Below, one piece after another: positions 9,881 to 49,847 of a stretch of 64,000 bases of DNA. The DNA lies in assembly GCA_027475525.1 (NCBI GenBank), contig JAMWFC010000011.1, forward strand, positions 1,183 through 65,182. The letters are read 5' to 3'. A program made the position numbers and the translations under genes. How positions within the stretch are numbered: position 1 is the stretch's first letter; each line of letters starts with the position of its first letter. The notes beneath the pieces are model-generated. The model searched no databases. It worked only from the letters and a program-made list of their open reading frames with translations, and had not been told where the DNA came from. The DNA is from Macrolepiota albuminosa (taxonomy: Eukaryota > Basidiomycota > Agaricomycetes > Agaricales > Agaricaceae).

Positions 9881-10034
9881 ACTCGAAGCGTCATAGCTCT
9901 CTTGGACAGTGGCGCTACTGGACTCTTTCTAGACACCCATTATGTGGAACAACACCAACTCAAAGCGTCATAGCTCTCTTGGACAGTGGCGCTACTGGAC
10001 TCTTTCTAGACACCCATTATGTGGAACAACACCA
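9881..10034. repeat. 77-bp duplication (Gypsy 1 protease)
   Basis: 9881-9957 and 9958-10034 match with one G/A difference. The duplicate repeats the protease DSG motif and shifts the frame. Confidence 0.9.
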
Positions 10035-11714
10035 GCTCACTACTCATCCCCTCCCTCACCCTATTCCAGTCTATAACATTGACGGTACGCTCAATGAAGC
10101 TGGATCCATCCGCTCAGTGGTGGATTTAGTCCTTTGTTATCAGACTCATTCAGAGCATGCAGTCTTTGCAGTTACCAGCCTAGGAAAGCAGGACATGATA
10201 CTTGGGTTCTCCTGGCTGTGTAATCACAATCCTGAGATTGACTGGGCCAAGGGTAAGATGAGCATGAGCCGCTGCCCTCGACGGTGTTCTACATGTGCCA
10301 AGGAAGTTATAGAGGAGCACAGAGAATCAGTCTGTGAGCGTGCTGCTATCCAGGCTTGCCAAGTTGGACACCTCCCCTTTGCAGACCTCGACCTACTGGA
10401 TTCTCCTCCCTTGGCATTCCCTTATAGAGAGGCCCTCTATGAGGACGTTCGAGGTGTAGTGAGTGAAGCTCAGATGAAAGATGGACGTGAGGGTGAATTT
10501 GGGTGTGCTCACGACCCAGAGTCTCCAAATGAGGCTATTGAGACAGGTGATAGGATTTATGCAACTATGTTACGACCTCCACCAACTGTAGCAGAGATTA
10601 GAGCTAGCCAAACTACCTCCCAGCAGCTAGCTCAGGCATTTGCTGCCAACTCTGCTCCTAAGTCGTTCCGAGATGCGGTTCCTCATCACCTGCAAGACTT
10701 TGAGGATGTTTTCTCTAAGGCATCATTTGACTCCCTGCCAGAGCGTAAGCAGTGGGACCATGCAATTGAGCTTACGCCCAACGCTGAGCCCTCTAGCTGC
10801 AAGGTCTACCCACTCTCTCCCAGAGAATAGGATGAGCTTGATGCCTTTTTGCAAGAGAATTTAGACTCTGGTCGCATCCGTCCCTCAAAGTCTCCGATGG
10901 CCTCTCCAGTCTTCTTCATTAAGAAGAAGGATGGATCTCTACGTCTGGTTCAGGACTATTGAGTCTTGAATGTGATGACTGTGAAGAATCGCTACCCCTT
11001 ACCACTCATTTCAGAGCTTGTCAACAACCTCCGAGGTGCACGCTACTTTACCAAGTTGAATGTCTGCTGGGGCTACAACAATATGTGCATCAAAGAAGGA
11101 GATGAGTAGAAGGGAGCATTCTGAACAAATCGTGGACTCTTTGAACCTCTGGTAATGTTCTTTGGCCTTACTAATAGCCCTGCCACCTTCCAGACTATGA
11201 TGAACGACATTTTCCGAGACCTCATAGCAGAAGGTGTTGTGTGCATATACCTTGACGATATTCTCATCTATACCAAGACTCTAGAGGAGCATTGTCGGAT
11301 TATGCAGGAACGTCTTCGCCAGCACCAGCTCTATCTTAAGCCAGAGAAGTGCGAGTTTGAGCAGACTAAGGTTGAATATCTTGGACTGATCATCTCTCAT
11401 GGAATGGCTGAGATGGACCCAGTCAAGGTGGCTGGTGTAGCGGAGTGGCCAGAGCCTAAGAACAAGAAGGAGGTTCAGGCCTTCCTGGGTTTCACCAACT
11501 TCTACTGGAGGTTTATTCAGGATTTCTCACACCATGCCCGGCCCCTCTTCAATCTCACCACTAAGGACACTCCTTGGCACTGGGATGCAGCACAGCAGAC
11601 AGCCTTTGATGCCCTCAAACAGGCAGTCACTTCAAAGCCTGTCCTTATATTCTCAGATGATGACTCTCCCTTCCGTGTCGAAGCTGATAGCTCAGATTTT
11701 GCTACTGGGGCCGT

Positions 11715-11868
11715 TCTCTCTCAACAGTCAAGGGAGGATGGTAAGTGGCATCCTGTGGCTTTCTACTCCAAGAGTCTCAATGCTGTGGAGCTCTCTCTCA
11801 ATAGTCAAGGGAGGATGGTAAGTGGCATCCTGTGGCTTTCTACTCCAAGAGTCTCAATGCTGTGGAGC
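11715..11868. repeat. 77-bp duplication (Gypsy 1 RNase H)
   Basis: 11715-11791 and 11792-11868 match with one C/T difference and break the pol frame inside RNase H. Confidence 0.9.
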
Positions 11869-13700
11869 AAAATTATGAGATCTATGACAAGGAGATGCTA
11901 GCTATCATTCGGTCATTTGAAGAGTGGTGACATTTCCTTGAGGGTGCCAGGCATAAATTTGAGGTGTGGACTGATCACAAAAACTTAGAGTACTTTTGGA
12001 CGGCCAAGAAACTTAACCACTGACAGGCTTGATGGTCCTTGTATCTGGCCAACTTTGACTTCTCTCTGCATCACAAACCTGGACAGAGCATGGGCAAGCC
12101 AGACACACTTTCTAGGTGAGCAGACCATGGTTCAGGAGCTAGTGACAATAACAATATTGTACTCCTAAAGCCAGAACTATTTGCTATCCGTGCTCTAGAA
12201 GGTGTGGTTGGCCAGGGAGAAGAAGTGAGCATCCTTTGAGACATCCGACGAGGTAACCGGGAGGGCGCTCAAGAAGATCTGGTAGCTAAGGCTGCCATGG
12301 CCTTGCATGCTCGAGAGAAAACTGGAGTGAAGTCCGTCCGCACCGACGAGTGGTCTCTGGAGAATGGTCTTCTCACCTTTCGAGGACGCATTTATGTTCC
12401 CAACCTGCCAGATCTCTGGAGGCGGATTGTGGAGCAGCATCATGACTCTCGAGTTGCAGGACATCCTGGCAGATGGAAGACACTGGAGCTGGTCTCACAG
12501 AATTACTGGTGGCCTCAAATGTCACGGTATATTGGCTCTTACACCTCTACCTGCGATTTTTGCCTTTGGACTAAGCCTTGTCATCAGCCTCCTATGGGAC
12601 AACTTTATTCATTGCCTATCTCAGCTGAGCGTTGGAGTGTGGCCTCGGTAGACTTCATTGTTGAGTTATCTGATTCTCATGGATATAATGCGATCATGGT
12701 GGTAGTGGATTTCTGTGGCAAGCATGCTCATATTATTCCAACACACACTACTTGCTCAGCCATGGGCACTGCCAATCTGTACCGGAAGCATGTCTGGAAG
12801 CTCCATGAGTTGTCAGATGCTTACATCTCGGACCATGGACCTCAGTTTGTGGCAGAGTTTACTAGAGAACTGTATCGCCTCCTTCATGTCAAACTCCACA
12901 CTTTCACAGCCTACCACCCCCAATCTGATGGCCAGACTGAGATTGTCAACCAGGAGCTAGAACAGTATCTCTGGCTCTTCTGCAATGAACGACAGGATGA
13001 CTGGGACAATCTATTACCAGAGGCAGAGTTCCAGTACAACAACCGTGTACATGCTGCCACCCAGATGTCTCCTTTCCTTCTAGATACTGGTCGACATCCT
13101 CAGATGGGATTTGAGCCTCGTGGACGACCTTCAGAGAATGAAGCTGTCAACGAGTTCATAGATCGGATGAAGGCAGCCCAGGAGGAAGCCAAGGCAGCTT
13201 TAGCTAAGGCAAAGGATGACATGGTCCGCTACTATGATTGTGGACGAACTCCAGCCCCCAAGTACAAGCCTGGAAATAGAGTCTATCTGGATGCCTCTAA
13301 CATTGCTACCACCCGACCTTCTCAGAAGCTCTCTCACCGTCGTCTAGGACCCTTTCCTATAGTATGGCAAGTAGGCCCACTTGCCTATCAACTCAAGCTG
13401 CCTAGTTGAATGAGTCGACTCCATCCAGTCTTCAATGTGGTGAAGCTTTCTCCAGCCCCAGAGGATCCAATCCCAGGTCGACATCCACAGCCACCTCCAC
13501 CACCAGTTCTGGTAAACAACCAAGAAGAGTACGAAGTGGAATGGATCCTAGACAGCCGACTCTTTAGGAATAAGCTTCAGTTCAAGGTCAAGTGGAAGGG
13601 CTATGGAATCGAGGACATCTCCTGGGAGCCACAAGAGAATGTCCATGCCCCTGCTTTGGTCCAGGTTCTAATGAAGAGGAGTATTGGCATATTATGCTAT

Positions 13701-41993: not shown

Positions 41994-43079
41994 TTCACTC
42001 ACATTGTGAGTGCCAATGAATACCAGCTTTCTTATTGCTGCTCTTAATTATATTTATTGAGTCATAGCAAAAGATTCAGAAATCATGTGACTTATTTGTT
42101 GATTGATAGAAATAAGAATAGGTCTAGAAATATATTTTTCTCTTTGATCTATAGAATCTGCCCAATTCACAGACTGCTAACCTAGGAACAAGATGTATAT
42201 TATATTAAAAATATAATACATCAGAAAATTTGCAATGTTCCTGGATTATCTTATGAACTACTAGAGCAAATCTAATAATAAAAGAATATATCTGGATAGC
42301 CCATGAAAAACCAGTTTTCTATTAGCTCACAGGTACAGCATATACTGTAGTAGTTCCTGAGATATTTACAACTTATTGCTTAAAAAACCAACTTTTAGAC
42401 ATGACTATTGATTGAACTATGGCCAAGAATCCAGAGGTCATGTGACTTATTGGCTGATTGGTAGAAAAGATAAATAGTTTTAAAAACATATTTTTTTGTT
42501 GGACCTAAATGATCTGCTCAAATCCTAGACTTCTAATCTAGGAACAATGAGTATACTATTTTAAAAATATTAGACATCAAATAATTTGCAATATTCCTGG
42601 ATTATCTCATGAACTACTAGGCTGAATATAATAATCAGTATATTTCTAGATAGTCCTTAAAAAACTAGTTTTCAACCAACCTACAGATCTGGCATATACC
42701 ATGATTGTTGCTGAGATATTCACAATTTATTGATTAAAAAATCAACTTTTAGACCCCCTTATTGATAGGGCCATAGCAAAGGACCCAGAGGTCATGTAAG
42801 TTGTTGGCTGGTTGGTTGACAAGCAAAATAGGTTTAGAAAAGCAGAATTTCTTAATCAAAGTATCTCTAAATAGCTTTTGGAGATTTTTATTAGCTTACA
42901 GGTCTGGCATATACTAGGGTAGATCTAAAATATGTACAATTTACTTCTAAACAAATCAACTGCCAGACTCCCATATTGATAGAGCTGTAGCAAAGGATAC
43001 AGAAGTCATATGTCTTGATAATTGGTTGGTTAGCAAGCAAAGTAGGTCTAGAAACATATTTTCTTCTTAGAGCTAAGTG

Positions 43080-43233
43080 ATCTGCTCAAATCTGAGTCTT
43101 CTAGCCCAGAAACAAAGAGTATACTATTTTGAAAATATAAAATGTTATAAATTTGCATCTGCTCAAATCTGAGTCTTCTAGCCCAGAAACAAAGAGTATA
43201 CTATTTTGAAAATATAAAATGTTATAAATTTGC
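43080..43233. repeat. 77-bp duplication (354-bp array)
   Basis: 43080-43156 is repeated exactly at 43157-43233. Confidence 0.9.
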
Positions 43234-43385
43234 AATGTTCCTGGATTATCTCATGAACTACTGGGCAGAATGGTAAAATCAGGATACCATTGGATAGCCC
43301 TTGAAAAACTGGACTTCTATCATTCCACAGGTCTAGCATATGTTATGATAGCCACTGTGATATTTTCAATTTATTATTTGGAAAA

Positions 43386-43539
43386 TCAACTTTTACACCT
43401 CCTTATTGATTGGGCCATAGCAAAGGATCCAGAGGTCATGTGACTTGATGGCTGGTTGGTTGTCAACTTTTACACCTCCTTATTGATTGGGCCATAGCAA
43501 AGGATCCAGAGGTCATGTGACTTGATGGCTGGTTGGTTG
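43386..43539. repeat. 77-bp duplication (354-bp array)
   Basis: 43386-43462 is repeated at 43463-43539 and doubles the GTCATGTGAC anchor. Confidence 0.9.
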
Positions 43540-43623
43540 CCCTGCAGAATAGGTCTAGGAACATATTTCCTTGTTGGACCAAAGTGATCCGCTCAAATCT
43601 TAGTCTTTTATCCCAGGAACAAG

Positions 43624-43777
43624 GGTGTGCTATTTTAATAATATAAAACATTATAAATTTGCAATGTTCCTGGATTATCTCATGAACTACTGGGCAGAAT
43701 GGTGTGCTATTTTAATAATATAAAACATTATAAATTTGCAATGTTCCTGGATTATCTCATGAACTACTGGGCAGAAT
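43624..43777. repeat. 77-bp duplication (354-bp array)
   Basis: 43624-43700 is repeated at 43701-43777. Confidence 0.85.
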
Positions 43778-44413
43778 GGTGAGATCGGGATACCATTGGA
43801 TAGCCCTTGAAAAACTGAGTTTCTACAAACTCACAGGTCTAGCATATGCTATGGTAGCCACTGTGATATTTTCAATTTATTATTTGGAAAATCAACTTTT
43901 ACACCTCCTTATTGACTGGGCTATAGCAAAGGATCCAGAGGTCATGTGACTTAATGGCTGGTTGGTTGCCCAGCGGAATAGGTCTAGGAACATATTTTTC
44001 TGTTGGACCAAAGTGATCTGCTCAAATTCTAGTCTTTTATCCCAGGAACAAGGAGTATGCTATTTTAATAACATACAGCAGCAAAAAAATTCATTGTTCC
44101 TGGATTTTCTCATGAACTACTGGGCAGAATTAAAAAATCAGGATATCATTGGATAGCCCTTGAAAAACTGGTTGGCAACCAACCTACAGGTCCAGCATAT
44201 ACCTTAGTGGTTCTTGAAATATTCATAATTTAGTGCTGCAAAAAAACAACTGTTAAGCCCCTGTATTGATGGGGCCATAAAGAGAGATCCAGAGATCATG
44301 TGACTTAGTGGTAGGTTGGTTGCCCTGCAAAATAGGTCTAGGAACATATTTCCCTTTTGGACCAAAGTAATCCGCTCAAATCCTGGTCTTCTAGCTCAAG
44401 AACAAGGAGTGAC

Positions 44414-44433
44414 GGGATAACGGCCGTTATCCC
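44414..44433. repeat. 20-bp perfect palindrome, right-end hairpin
   Basis: GGGATAACGG-CCGTTATCCC. Counterparts before CTAG: GATAACGGCCATTATC (8902), GGAATTT-tacatg-AAATTCC (about 37943 and 45269), CCTTTTA-CA-TAAAAGG (27189). Stems are kept while bases change. Confidence 0.75.
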
Positions 44434-44687
44434 AGGCCTCGCTTACTAGGGATTCCCCAGGGATTCCCCTGCCATGAAGTCGTGTCACCGTTATTTCGGT
44501 GTGGGAAAAGAAGAGAAGTTGCAGGGCACAGGGCTCAGTGTTCCATCAGAAATTCTTCTGAGGGACTTTTGCTACTCGTCCACATGGACCAATAGCAAAA
44601 ACTGAGCACCCTAGGCTTACTCAGATGACGGTCAGGTGCCCTCCCAAATACAGTAGTATTCCGGAAGGTTCTGGAACATTGCAAACA

Positions 44688-44760
44688 GTTGCAAACGGGC
44701 CTGATGAGGCATATAAGCCGAAACAGGGAGGTGGGATTTCCCCCACTGTTGCCCTGCAAC
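44688..44760 (+). ncRNA. Hammerhead ribozyme, type I
   Basis: The complete conserved core is present. Stem I is GTTGCA (44688-44693) and GGGC (44697-44700) pairing with GCCC (44751-44754) and TGCAAC (44755-44760), with an AAC bulge. Then come CTGATGA (44701-44707), stem II GGC/GCC with loop ATATAA (44708-44719), GAAA (44720-44723), stem III ACAG/CTGT (44723-44726 with 44746-44749) and an inner TGGG/CCCA. The cleavage triplet is GTT (44748-44750), so cleavage is predicted after 44750. All invariant core bases are there and stem I has ten Watson-Crick pairs. Both ends open at stem I, hence type I. Confidence 0.88.
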
Positions 44761-44790
44761 GTACTTCGCCAACTCGGTGTATAGTAACTC

Positions 44791-44815
44791 CACTACCTCG
44801 CTTCGCTCGGTAGTG
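44791..44815 (+). other. Hairpin just before the telomeric repeats
   Basis: CACTACC (44791-44797) pairs with GGTAGTG (44809-44815), with an inner CG-CTT-CG. It lies 7 nt before the first CCCTAA and may be a 3'-end recognition structure for reverse transcription (inference). Confidence 0.5.
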
Positions 44816-44822
44816 TCGCGCT

Positions 44823-44841
44823 CCCTAACCCTAACCCTAAC
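44823..44841. repeat. Interstitial telomeric repeat, 3 x CCCTAA
   Basis: Three perfect CCCTAA units plus C. On the + strand, CCCTAA reading rightwards into subtelomeric DNA is the orientation of a left chromosome end. Confidence 0.9.
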
Positions 44842-45304
44842 TTATTGAAGGTTTGCAACTTTATGTAGACATGTTTGAGAACATGGTTTGCTGAGACAGC
44901 TAAGAAATCTGTTTAGAATTGAGTCCAGGAATTAGGGAGAAAGCTTACATATCAGTTTATTTTAATAGTAGATTTATAAAGAAAGAGCAGGTCACATGAC
45001 TTAGTTGGTACTTGCAACCTCAGGAATAGAGCATATAGAACATATTTTACTGAGGTACCAAAGAAATCTGGTGAGGTTTGAGCTCAGGAATTAGGGAGGA
45101 AGCTAAAAATAGATAGTGGATTTCAAAAGTGACTAGTGGTCACATGACTTATTGAAGGTTTGCAACTTCAAGTAGACATGTGTAGAAACATGGTTTGCTG
45201 AGGTAGCTAAGACATTTGTTTAGAATTGAGCCCAGAAATTAGGGAGAAAGATCTAGCAAAATTTGCATGGGAATTTTACATGAAATTCCAGGAATCACTT
45301 ACTA
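44842..45304 (+). repeat. Family D array next to the telomeric repeat
   Basis: It starts inside a monomer (TTATTGAAGG, normally preceded by GTCACATGAC), runs through an A-B-A monomer order (anchors at about 44993 and 45141), and closes with the same hairpin and AGGAATCACTTACTAG as 37978. Confidence 0.85.
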
Positions 45305-46976
45305 GGACATGAAAAATCTTGTTGGATGGAAGATGTTGAATCGGAGACCCATAGGGGATGAACCAAAGCAGATTGACTATGCGAGGATGACGTTACCTGC
45401 CGTATTTAGTGAGCCAACGTTAATTGCAGTGTGTACCGTGGTCCTAACCTACATGCCAATTCGCACCATTGGTATGCATGAAATTGTAATAAGTCGAAAG
45501 TCACTGCCTCAATTTGGCAACTCCTGTACGTGCATGTGCTGTCAATTAAGAAAGGCACCGATTTGGCCTTGAACGACCCTCAAAGCTGGTGAATACATCG
45601 CAACAGAGAAATCGAGACAATTAGAGAAGTCTATCGTCCTATAGTTATTGAAAGGCTGTCGCTCACCGACTTTCAGCCTTTCGAGTCTCTGCTATATTGC
45701 AAGTCACGGTTTATCTCCCATTGTCTGACCATCTAGTGTACACCATGCTATCGAATACAGTACCCAACCGATAAAACTCCAGGTAACTGAAGTCAGTTAC
45801 GTTTTACCTCGTTTGAAAGGTTGTAAGTCAGCCCTAATATATCCACGGTATCACGTCGGTCTCCCTCAGAGTGAGGCGCCCTGACCCCTTCATCCAACTG
45901 AATTAGCCTAGCTCCTTCGGAAAGCCTCACACTCGATCAACCTGCCACTGGAGCATTTGCATGGTACAACTTGTGACAAGGAGTACAGAGAGTGACTCGA
46001 AATTACTTCGCCTGAAAACAGAGTTATATGGATTATATCTGTCTGGAGGTTGTTAATTACGTCAATGAAGCATAATACGCTCCCACTCCATGCTGGTATA
46101 TTAATGCGTAAAATCGTGTCAGTTAGTTTTTTTGACCGAGTCAAACGCACGAAAGGTAGCTACAGTGACAAGGATAGGGAGGACATAGCAGGTCCTGCTT
46201 TCTGTGTCATTTGAATTCTAGGTACATTCATAGTGCAAAGGTGGCCGAAGCTTCTATGTTGAGACAATAGAGTTTCACAAAACCGCCGCACAGACGAGAA
46301 GAACTTGTCAGATCACTGGTACCTTGGACAGGGAGCAAAAAGCGGCAAGCATGTATGGATTCACGAGCTCCAGACTCTAGTTAAAGTACGCTTTCGCTGA
46401 ACTGATCCGTAAGAAAAAGTCCATGTCTGATGTTGAGTAAGGTATTAATGCAGCTCAAATATTGAACCGCTTTTGGTAGGAGGGCAAAATGACAAAGGTG
46501 CAGGATTCCAAATACGTTACACTAGCTTGATCTGCGACGTCTCGAGGTTTCAACAGAAGTTACTATATGCCAAAGCCGACGGAAGTAATATCAGACGAAT
46601 ACGAAGCGCAGGAAAAGTAGGAGCGTTGTCTTGTTGCCGGTTCGAAGCAAGTGTCTCAGGTATGGGTCAGAGGATGGGTATCCTATGGGAAGCTCGAATA
46701 TGGATGTTCGCCAATTGCAGGGCAAGAGGCAATATTTACTGTACTGTAGGATTACGTACAAGCTCGACGTTGGCATTGCGGTCATTGATATCCACTTGTC
46801 GGACTCCTGTATCACAATGCGAGTGTTGTATGGGCGCTTGTCACTTGGAATGGATGTCAGCATGACGACTACCGTGAGAATTGGTCGTTTGCTAGTCGCC
46901 ATGAATATTCTTCTCATCACCCTGCGGTCGAGGGCAGCGGCACTCAAGACGGCGTCATCCTTTGAGTCCTAGCGTG
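45305..46976. other. Unique-looking DNA, no gene recognised
   Basis: Mixed composition with short frames on both strands (for example 46473-46865 +) but no domain, no convincing splice pattern and no repeat. It forms the left flank of the transposon. Confidence 0.35.
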
Positions 46977-47091: not shown

Positions 47092-49847
47092 CTAGACAGC
47101 TCCAGATGACAGATAATAAAAAGCAATTTTCTTTTCATATTCCTCCTTCAGTTCCCTTGCAATTTCTGGAGGCAATGTACGATGTCCATGATATTTCCGA
47201 TTAGCCCAGGCTGCTTGTGGTCCTGTCAAACCCTGACAATATGCATCAATAAATCGTGCAGCTCGATTTGCATATCTGAGTTATAGAAGCAATGAAAAGA
47301 GGACCCAAAGCATCAAATAGGTAACATACCTCTGGATTTGAATTAAAGGAATTGAGTCTAGACATTCCCACACATTCTGCTCCATATCATCAATGCCTGA
47401 GGTTGCAGTTGTGTTTCGATACAGGAGTTTGGCAGCACCCCAGTACTGCTCTATAAAGTTGAGCTCACAGTGGTACTTGGGGTAAAAATCGCAAAGGTGC
47501 CCTCTAGCAGTGATGATTTCTTCAAGATGGGATTTTTGATTGACAAAATCGGGCTGATTGAATAAAAGACGTCGACAACAGCAATTGGTCTTCCCAGGCT
47601 CACATTTGAAGCCTTCACATTGAGCGTTCAGTTCATGAACTGGCCAAAGTCCATGCTCATGAATGATAATTTCCATCCCTTTAAACCATTCTGGCACGGT
47701 GGGATGGTCATCTGGAAAATAGAAATCCTGGTAATGAATTTCATTATTATGCTCATACCAACCTTGCCTCATTTTAGGACCATCCTTCTTGTACCGCCAT
47801 GTTTCATGGGGATTTTTAGGCATGTACCGTGCTGAAAGAGCATTAGGTGCACGCTTTTGGTGGCTAGGTGCATTGTCAAACATCATCAATGCAGTTGCAA
47901 ACCCATTAGTCTTGTCTTCAAAAATATCAAGAGCAAGTTCAACTTGCTCTATCAAGTGTTCATTCTTGAACCACTCTTCACGATTTTTTCCAGCCTTGAA
48001 AAACAACCTCGCCTCTCTGAAATTTGATTTTATTGAGCTGCAAGTCATATTATTAATAGAAGCAAAAACGCACTGTCCATTGTGAGTTAACCGGCCCCAA
48101 TCTGGTGTTACAAAGTCAGAGACCATGATTGATTGTCCTTCACCTTTCTTCTCTGTTGATGCCTTTTGAGTTGGATGGATCCATTTAGTTTTCCTGCGAT
48201 CATTCTTATAAAATGTTGATTCATCATGCATGACGAGAACAATCCTAAATGGCTGTCCATTTGTGATTGGAAAGCCGGCAGGTGTGATCTTCTTGTTGTC
48301 ATGGGTATAATGGACAAATCTCTTCTCATAATCCTTCCAGCGTGCCACAAACATCTTTCGATATTGCACAACATCCTCCTTTTCATGCCCATCAATATAC
48401 ATTCCATTTTTTTTCGAGCATAGCGCCAGCTAAACTGATCAAGCCATCAACGAGCACTTTGTACAGAAATAGTGCATGATTTCCCATCAGGTGAGCCACC
48501 CAGTCGTTTTTGATTTTCTGGCAAGGCAATGTAGTCTACAATGTCCTGAGCTCGAATATAGCCCCCTTTAGCCTTTTCTATCAGGTGCAACTGCAAGTCC
48601 TGGGAGAAATCTTTGTCATCAAGAATTGAAATGTTTGCATTGCAGTATCGGTGTAAAGGCAGGGCTTCAGTACATAAAAATTGGCGGATCCAAATTCTGA
48701 GTTGACGAGCATAACTAACATGCCTTCCTGCAGCATGCGCAGCCAGCGATGAAGCCTGCCGCCAGGTGTATGAGAGGTTTGGCTCCAAATATAAATTGAG
48801 AGTTCCGATCATGGCAGACAAATGAGCACGAATAACAAGATCAAGCTTTTTATTTTTGCTGTGCAGTACCAGCCTGTTCTGAGCACAATGCAAGGCTGGG
48901 AAGTTTTTCCAGCAAAGCTTGTCAAGAAGCTGGTCAGTTCTTGTTTCGGGACTGTCATCTTGTGGTGGTGAATGATCTTTGAGTTTGCTTAAAAGGCTTC
49001 GAACATGTTCTCGCACTGTCATCACTGCCTTATCTCCCTCTTTTAATGCTTGCTCTGCAGCTGTCCAGGACTGGAGGCCCTATAAAACATATCAGAGTGT
49101 TATATTGGTGAGTTATTTTGACTTTTCTTACTTCATTTTGATCAAAAATATTGTTCAGGTGCGTAACCATGATCTGCTCTTTTTCCTTGCTGCTCTCTTC
49201 TTTTTCTACATCTCTATCCTCATTTCCAGCTCTTTTCATGCCATTTCCATTATCTCTTCTTCCTTGCTGCTCTCTTCTTTTTCTACATCTCTATCCTCAT
49301 TTCCAGCTCTTTTCATGCCATTTCCATTATCTCCTGAATTACCGATACTTGTATAAGTGTGTGCCTTTCAATTTTCAATGTAGAAGATTTGCTTACCTTT
49401 AAAGTAGTCAAACATAAACTTCTGGCCTGTTTTTGCCAGTTCTCGGCGCTTTGCTGCATAGTATCGCTTTGTTCGAGCTGAATTTCCGAGATAGTGGTGA
49501 GGCCGATTAGGTTTTTCACCTTTTGCAGCTCTCTCAGCCTCGATAGCAACTTTCTGTGCCTCGTGAAGGATCCTTGAAAATTGCAGAATCTCCTTCTCCT
49601 GGACCTTCTCTAGCTCATCGTCATCTTCTTCAAGGTCAGAGTCTTCATCTCCGTTACTCTGTACATCATTTTCATCATCATCTTTCCAGAAAACAAGCTC
49701 AAGAGGTTTATCATCTTCGATTTGAGGCTGGGGAGAAGGGTCGATATCCTCAGAGTCAGAACTAGAAAATGTGTCCGATTTCTTGGTGGATTTTGCTTGG
49801 GAAAGGTTCTCCAGACGTGCCTGCTTTGCTTTCAATCGTCTTCCCAT
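47092..49847 (-). pseudogene. DDE transposase, two inactivating lesions
   Basis: Exons (minus): 49847-49397, 49333-49132, 49079-47330, 47275-47092, joined by short GT-AG introns. The N-terminus is basic then acidic (EEDDDELEKVQEKE); the middle is helical (MTVREHVRSLLSKL). The catalytic part shows VMHDESTF, MMFDNAPSH and ELNFIEQYWG, the D, D and E positions of the Tc1/mariner DDE fold. The tail reads QAAWANRKYHGHRTLP. About 141 residues separate the second D and the E, far more than the usual 34-39, with a Cys-rich insert (CEGFKCEPGKTNCCCRR). A TGA at 48447-48449 replaces a conserved Arg and a one-base loss in an A-run near 48405 breaks the frame, so this copy is not autonomous as sequenced. 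Confidence 0.85.
49180..49333. repeat. About 77-bp duplication (transposase exon 2)
   Basis: A 77-bp period with copies starting near 49180 and 49257. It repeats the Glu/Lys-rich segment and part of the exon 2 acceptor region; one T/C difference. Confidence 0.85.

Follow-up and report, generated by a model that had tools for sequence, protein, structure and literature searches.

A probable 3' end of an endonuclease-lacking Penelope-like element with a hammerhead motif and telomere repeats in a mushroom, and a group I intron in its ORF-bearing copies

When a 64-kb stretch of Macrolepiota albuminosa DNA (the whole of which is referred to as the window) was analysed, the sequence at 44449..44841 on the plus strand was identified as probably the 3' end of an endonuclease-lacking, telomere-attaching agaricomycete Penelope-like element (PLE). 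Genome matches indicate a 5'-truncated 3' terminal unit (pseudo-LTR) of the element's family 1, and in ORF-bearing copies elsewhere in the genome a group I intron was found between the hammerhead and CCCTAA. A bolder reading that builds on this identification is tentative, and its chances are put a little short of even: the RNA of a telomere-targeted retrotransposon would be matured by two ribozymes in series, exon joining would build a 3' stem-loop and set the hammerhead beside CCCUAA, only spliced RNA would be copied onto chromosome ends and unspliced RNA would be otherwise used, and the intron would be the first nuclear self-splicing group I intron outside rDNA.

The window copy is short, lacks a long open frame and starts at GGGATTCCCC; several other copies extend further upstream, into the body of the element. 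The window contains no group I intron. The copy now lies approximately 46 kb from the contig start, flanked by diverged repeats and not at a telomere, and would be a truncated product that was afterwards stranded this far inside a subtelomere-like region. The element is flanked by diverged direct repeats of two distinct families, at 42051-44429 on the left and 44840-45250 on the right, and no obvious target-site duplication was seen at its flanks. Adjoining the truncated 5' end is a distal junction (44414..44449, plus strand) consisting of a 20-nt palindrome, 12 nt and then CTAG, which does not belong to the PLE and resembles what we take to be the signature of a Helitron 3' end. Ends of this palindrome-CTAG type also adjoin other PLE units (L011, L016), at different places, and the exact palindrome core was found at 10 genomic places, several of them near contig ends. 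Elsewhere in the window, open frames at 9979-13409 read like pol pieces of a Gypsy-type LTR retrotransposon and a 373-aa minus-strand frame at 47281-48402 resembles a DDE-type transposase, both being impressions from the reading frames.

The type I hammerhead ribozyme motif was located at 44688..44760 on the plus strand. Stem I is formed by 44688-44693 and 44697-44700 paired with 44751-44760, giving 10 pairs (6+4) and a 3-nt AAC bulge, and is followed by the CTGATGA core at 44701-44707. Stem II has 3 pairs (44708-44710/44717-44719) and the loop ATATAA, GAAA occupies 44720-44723, and stem III pairs 44723-44726 with 44746-44749, contains an extra inner hairpin and is followed by U at 44750. By this anatomy, cleavage is predicted at GUU^G (44750..44751, plus strand), position 17 of the hammerhead core. 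The three helices around CUGAUGA, GAAA and NUH that define a type I hammerhead were found in the window sequence, by the descriptor and in the relatives. A strict descriptor gave one match on the plus strand and none on the minus strand of the window, and when 300 Markov-1 sequences as long as the window were searched on one strand each, none was matched. In 18 units (10 of family 1 and 8 of family 2, of which 8 are distinct in their pairs), 325 of 330 hammerhead pairs were kept, and two-sided changes across units affect four pairs, two in distal stem I and one each in stems II and III; these counts rest on a structural mapping between units that was set by hand because the MAFFT alignment shifted the cleavage site by one column between the families. 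The anatomy, the descriptor and the cross-family changes together confirm the full type I hammerhead with a ten-pair stem I, CTGATGA, GAAA and a GTT site that had been described in the initial annotation.

When the genome (100 Mb, 129 contigs) was searched with 44449-44841, 16 matches were obtained, namely the sequence itself, 9 covering at least 355 nt at 92-98% identity, and 6 shorter ones (three tail pieces of 109 nt and three that are shorter still). The longer genomic copies and the linked Penelope reverse transcriptase (RT) that the initial annotation had asked for were both found: RT-bearing longer copies terminate in the same unit, with a PLE-type RT without GIY-YIG upstream of the tail, which supports the placing of hammerhead and CCCTAA in a Penelope-like remnant. 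The full-length order was pseudo-LTR with hammerhead, group I intron, CCCTAACCCTAAC, start codon and one long ORF, followed by the 3' UTR, a second hammerhead and CCCTAAC. The ORF encodes a telomerase-like RT without GIY-YIG. A PLE/TERT-type RT is indicated by RT motifs seen in 11 proteins and by homologues labelled as RT; Pfam RVT_1 matched only 1 of the 11 proteins and not the element's own protein, and a PDB sequence search with the RT protein gave no match. For the predicted structure (AlphaFold) of the homologue P0003, telomerase was the best match, in a model of middling confidence with pLDDT below 50 at residues 371-404, 413-437 and 466-549. No Pfam match to GIY-YIG was found in P0001, P0002 or the 11 members of A1, as expected of an endonuclease-lacking element, and the reverse-complement telomere repeats at the 3' end are those of an endonuclease-deficient telomere-associated PLE. 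Among 120 homologous proteins, a telomere-like peptide upstream of the ORF was found in one (P0020), three further pattern matches inside the ORF being left out of this count.

Three CCCTAA units, the reverse complement of the telomere repeat, are located at 44823..44840 on the plus strand, and the succession of a hammerhead and three same-strand CCCTAA units that had been noted initially was borne out, with 62 nt between stem I and the first unit. There were 2 overlapping matches to CCCTAACCCTAA in the window compared to 0 expected (100 shuffles). In all six ORF-bearing 5' units (L011, L034, L035, L037, L038 and L039), CCCTAACCCTA stands directly before the ORF start. Fourteen unit 3' ends (9 of family 1 and 5 of family 2, leaving out the near-identical partial tails L017-L019) stop in or after the telomere repeat, and none of the 14 runs on into ORF-side sequence; the 3' breaks of copies fall in or after CCCTAACCCTAAC, within differing flanks. 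CCCTAAC and more of the repeat were present at 9/9 unit ends in family 1 and at 2/5 in family 2, whose 3' ends are less telomere-like (CCC is all that remains in L034 and L035, and L036 has a degenerate run). Telomere repeats beyond the element-encoded number were seen in 5/14 (the window copy, L011, L012, the proximal unit of L016, and L040), and of the three CCCTAA units in the window about two are probably element-encoded and the third telomere-derived. The stopping of 3' ends in the encoded repeat fits priming by a TTAGGG end on internal CCCUAA. Irregular telomere-like repeats with CCCTAACTAACCC follow the 3' ends of L011, L012, L016 (proximal) and L040, a hint that the telomere repeat may vary in this fungus.

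The 3' end pointed inward, relative to the nearer contig end, at 8/8 family-1 loci with a full unit, which lie 3.5-122 kb from that end, at 2/7 family-2 loci, and at 0/3 of the partial tails L017-L019, all of which face outward. The 5' pieces on contigs C86 and C119 lack a 3' end from which an orientation could be read. The initial expectation of copies next to telomeres held in part, in that copies were found near contig ends facing inward, but a telomere array was found at none of the 11 contig end pieces examined. L017-L019 are near-identical tail copies that start within the stem III part and are fused to other DNA; L017 and L018 share 6.7 kb at 100% identity and therefore look like passengers of a larger duplication. 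At L012 (C119:292300-295993), a full unit is immediately preceded by 78 nt from the 5' end of the unit, an arrangement that a template jump would leave. L038 and L039 match at 100% over 850 nt, and a duplication appears to have given rise to the pair L034 and L035. Searches for relatives in viral_contigs and genome_contigs gave 11 and 81 pattern matches, respectively, none of which was confirmed.

The hammerhead could be a decayed, inactive relic, with only the telomere repeats being of consequence, and this is considered quite unlikely. It would explain why no Rfam hammerhead model reached its gathering score in the window or E<=10 in 44000-45400, and why Hammerhead_3 on the 80 nt alone scored 13.9 bits (E 1.1) compared to a gathering score of 48.5. 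It would also agree with the folding of 44688-44761, for which the unconstrained structure (ViennaRNA, -29.4 kcal/mol) pairs the core otherwise and the most stable structure in which the hammerhead core is kept open (-26.7 kcal/mol) is 2.7 kcal/mol less stable; with the family-2 unit, which unaided folds into a structure that is not a hammerhead (-29.8) and with the core held open (-26.0) does not draw hammerhead stem III by itself; and with the strict descriptor, which is passed by 15/18 units and broken in both units of L016 and the one of L036. Against a relic stand the two-sided changes between units, which affect four pairs spread over three helices. A plain hammerhead pattern gave 180 genome matches compared to 150 for a reversed control, and the core letters alone therefore mean little. 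No Rfam model gave the score above noise that had been called for initially, and the strict descriptor and the two-sided cross-family changes are judged to outweigh this. A non-autonomous, retrozyme-like element that uses a hammerhead and is unrelated to PLEs would account for a short window copy without a long open frame and for a hammerhead inside a repeated terminal unit. It is very improbable, as RT-bearing copies are terminated by the same unit and this unit is present in both pseudo-LTRs; retrozyme identity (non-coding, no RT of its own) was largely refuted by the RT linkage. Hardly credible is the reading of the CCCTAA run as chance or as a purely telomerase-made scar beside an unrelated repeat: extra telomere repeats do occur on some 3' ends, but none would be expected by chance in the window and CCCTAACCCTA is encoded at the matching place in 6/6 ORF-bearing 5' units.

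In L011, the 5' pseudo-LTR is interrupted by 932 nt between the hammerhead and CCCTAACCCTAAC, the 3' repeat is uninterrupted, and the two pseudo-LTRs are 99.7% identical apart from the intron. The catalytic core of a group I intron was recognised by cmscan with Intron_gpI (RF00028, gathering 50) at 4 loci, with 82.8 bits for L011, 71.8 for L037 and 59.5 each for L038 and L039. In the whole genome, RF00028 gave 4 matches, all in this element, with only that of L011 above the cut-off; the other three covered shorter stretches and scored 46.4, 43.1 and 43.1 bits. This search scored 26 of its 3545 first-look candidates and may therefore have missed further introns. The intron DNA matches only these loci genome-wide, and the loci are taken as nuclear because their contigs are 1.8-3.3 Mb. 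Among the three distinct intron cores, 24 of 120 pairs drawn by RNAalifold, which cannot draw the pseudoknotted parts of the group I core, had two-sided changes. The distance from hammerhead core to tail-hairpin end was 123-127 nt in 16/18 units, and 1055 nt (L011) and 1081 nt (L037) in the two with the intron. The intron was present in 4/6 5' units compared to 0/14 3' units; since L038 and L039 are identical and L034 and L035 are likely a duplicated pair, the independent 5' units with an intron number 3/4. Full-length L034 and L035 lack the intron in both repeats.

The place of the 932-nt intron corresponds to a joined-exon site at 44798..44799 on the plus strand, between CCACTACCT and CGCTTCGC, where the window sequence equals the L011 exon ends read in succession. 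The L011 border is ambiguous by one base (C), and the placing was chosen to fit group I rules. With this placing, an unconstrained fold pairs CUACCU of the 5' exon with GGGUAG, located 71 nt into the intron, with U.G at the splice site, and G is the last intron base; these are group I borders for family 1. In family 2, comparison of L037 with its own 3' repeat gives a 5' border that has no U before it, and L038 and L039 lack the intron 5' part and the hammerhead side; the intron position differs between the two families, also relative to the hairpin. A spliceosomal intron was ruled out, as the ends read CACTTC...GCATG and not GT-AG.

Just before the telomere repeats, a 3' hairpin (CACTACC-TCGCTTCGCTC-GGTAGTG) was located at 44791..44815 on the plus strand by folding prediction and in aligned units. 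In family 1, the intron site separates its arms CACTACC and GGTAGTG, so that each exon contributes one. In the 12 family-1 units found without the intron, all 7 pairs were present each time, one A-U pair being replaced by G-C in two of them; the search pattern had fixed all but three left-arm letters and one right-arm letter. The same exon stretch is predicted to pair with the intron guide in the unspliced sequence. These findings suggest that splicing may build a structure next to the primer site.

The group I intron could instead be a mobile newcomer brought into the 5' repeats by homing or reverse splicing; the intron-free 3' repeats would then be the original state, and splicing would play no part in them. 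This is unlikely, though it retains a real chance of being right: the insertion places differ between the two families and the 3' repeats are empty in 14/14. However, the intron is 74.8% identical between the families over 753 nt and 85.7% over another 63, compared to 72.6% over 1981 nt and 64.3% over another 583 for the ORF, and, having diverged about as much as the ORF, the intron seems long established in the element, though the L011 repeats are 99.7% alike. Moreover, no close second copy that could serve as donor was found in the genome (the others being 71-75% identical), L034 and L035 are full-length without an intron in either repeat, and no homing-endonuclease gene was apparent in the intron from frame lengths. 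The longest frame, of 184 aa, had one database match, a 99% identical protein on a 991-nt contig.

In the preferred explanation, which is judged likely, the hammerhead would probably trim tandem transcripts, and reverse transcription would start where element RNA CCCUAACCCUAA pairs with a TTAGGG-ended chromosome 3' end. New copies would thus finish in CCCTAAC, their 3' end directed towards the interior of the chromosome; this anatomy is seen, and the priming would account for it. The copied 3' ends have no intron, and therefore the template there would most likely have been RNA already spliced. In family 1, exon joining completes in the sequence the hairpin directly before the priming repeats, where it may have a role, and the exons of the 5' repeat would join as CCACUACCU-CGCUUCGC. 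An intron kept at the 5' repeat and lost at the 3' repeat could reflect either the copying of tandem RNA that was partly spliced or fresh insertion of the intron. We infer splicing, cleavage and telomere priming from the sequences.

Coprina elements are endonuclease-deficient telomere-associated PLEs of basidiomycetes, and we know of no report of a group I intron in the 5' pseudo-LTR of such a PLE. More stable fungal hammerhead variants have reportedly been described by Cervera & de la Pena. The mushroom element differs from Athena and Coprina in having a group I intron in its 5' pseudo-LTR, a comparison that leaves aside the fungal elements of Gladyshev & Arkhipova (2007). The rotifer element Athena (PMC5537684) and the mushroom element share a PLE-type RT that lacks GIY-YIG and a 3' end with reverse-complement telomere repeats, and PLEs at chromosome ends are noted for the mushroom Agaricus bisporus in a portion of PMC7473861. 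Hammerheads combined with reverse-complement telomere repeats have already been published for the giant rotifer PLEs named Terminons (PMC6431247, in excerpt), so that what is new here is the group I intron in ORF-bearing copies. Compared to Terminons as portrayed in that excerpt, the mushroom element is small (hammerheads 4.4-5.7 kb apart in full copies), its repeat is of the TTAGGG type, its hammerhead has a full stem III, and it carries a group I intron. PLE hammerheads are usually minimal, without helix III or tertiary contacts, in the sections seen of PMC6155905 and PMC7761336, and the mushroom hammerhead differs from these in its helix III.

The lizard PLE PAc and the mushroom element are alike in their hammerhead-bearing pseudo-LTRs and in an RT start inside the RNA near the ORF start (PMC11167929). 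In PAc, GIY-YIG is present and the RT start, shown in vitro, lies 111-118 bp inside the ORF, whereas in the mushroom element the start would lie in the telomere-like repeats before the ORF; the hammerhead of the lizard PLE was not needed for insertion in vitro (PMC11167929). Nuclear group I introns are placed in rDNA only in excerpts of a 2013 review (PMC3679873) and a 2021 article (PMC8395846). The mushroom introns share with them the Rfam group I core and, in family 1, the U.G pair at the 5' splice site, and differ in lying in a retrotransposon. By title or abstract start, no report of a group I intron in a PLE or other retrotransposon was found among the matches listed, a comparison without the key PLE papers. 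Literature naming both PLEs and group I introns did so, in the excerpts at hand, in general remarks or for the shared GIY-YIG nuclease only, and by word search the words transpos- or retro- are absent from a 2025 group I intron database paper (PMC11835236).

Group I introns in a retrotransposon would have a non-ribosomal host and a possible route of spreading by reverse transcription, for which experimental evidence is described as lacking in the excerpt of PMC3679873. Hammerhead, splicing and telomere priming would be tied together in one small element, and the long-open question of the role of the PLE hammerhead becomes testable in a fungus. Moreover, CCCTAACCCTA encoded before the ORF offers a simple account of how an endonuclease-lacking element could pick chromosome ends.
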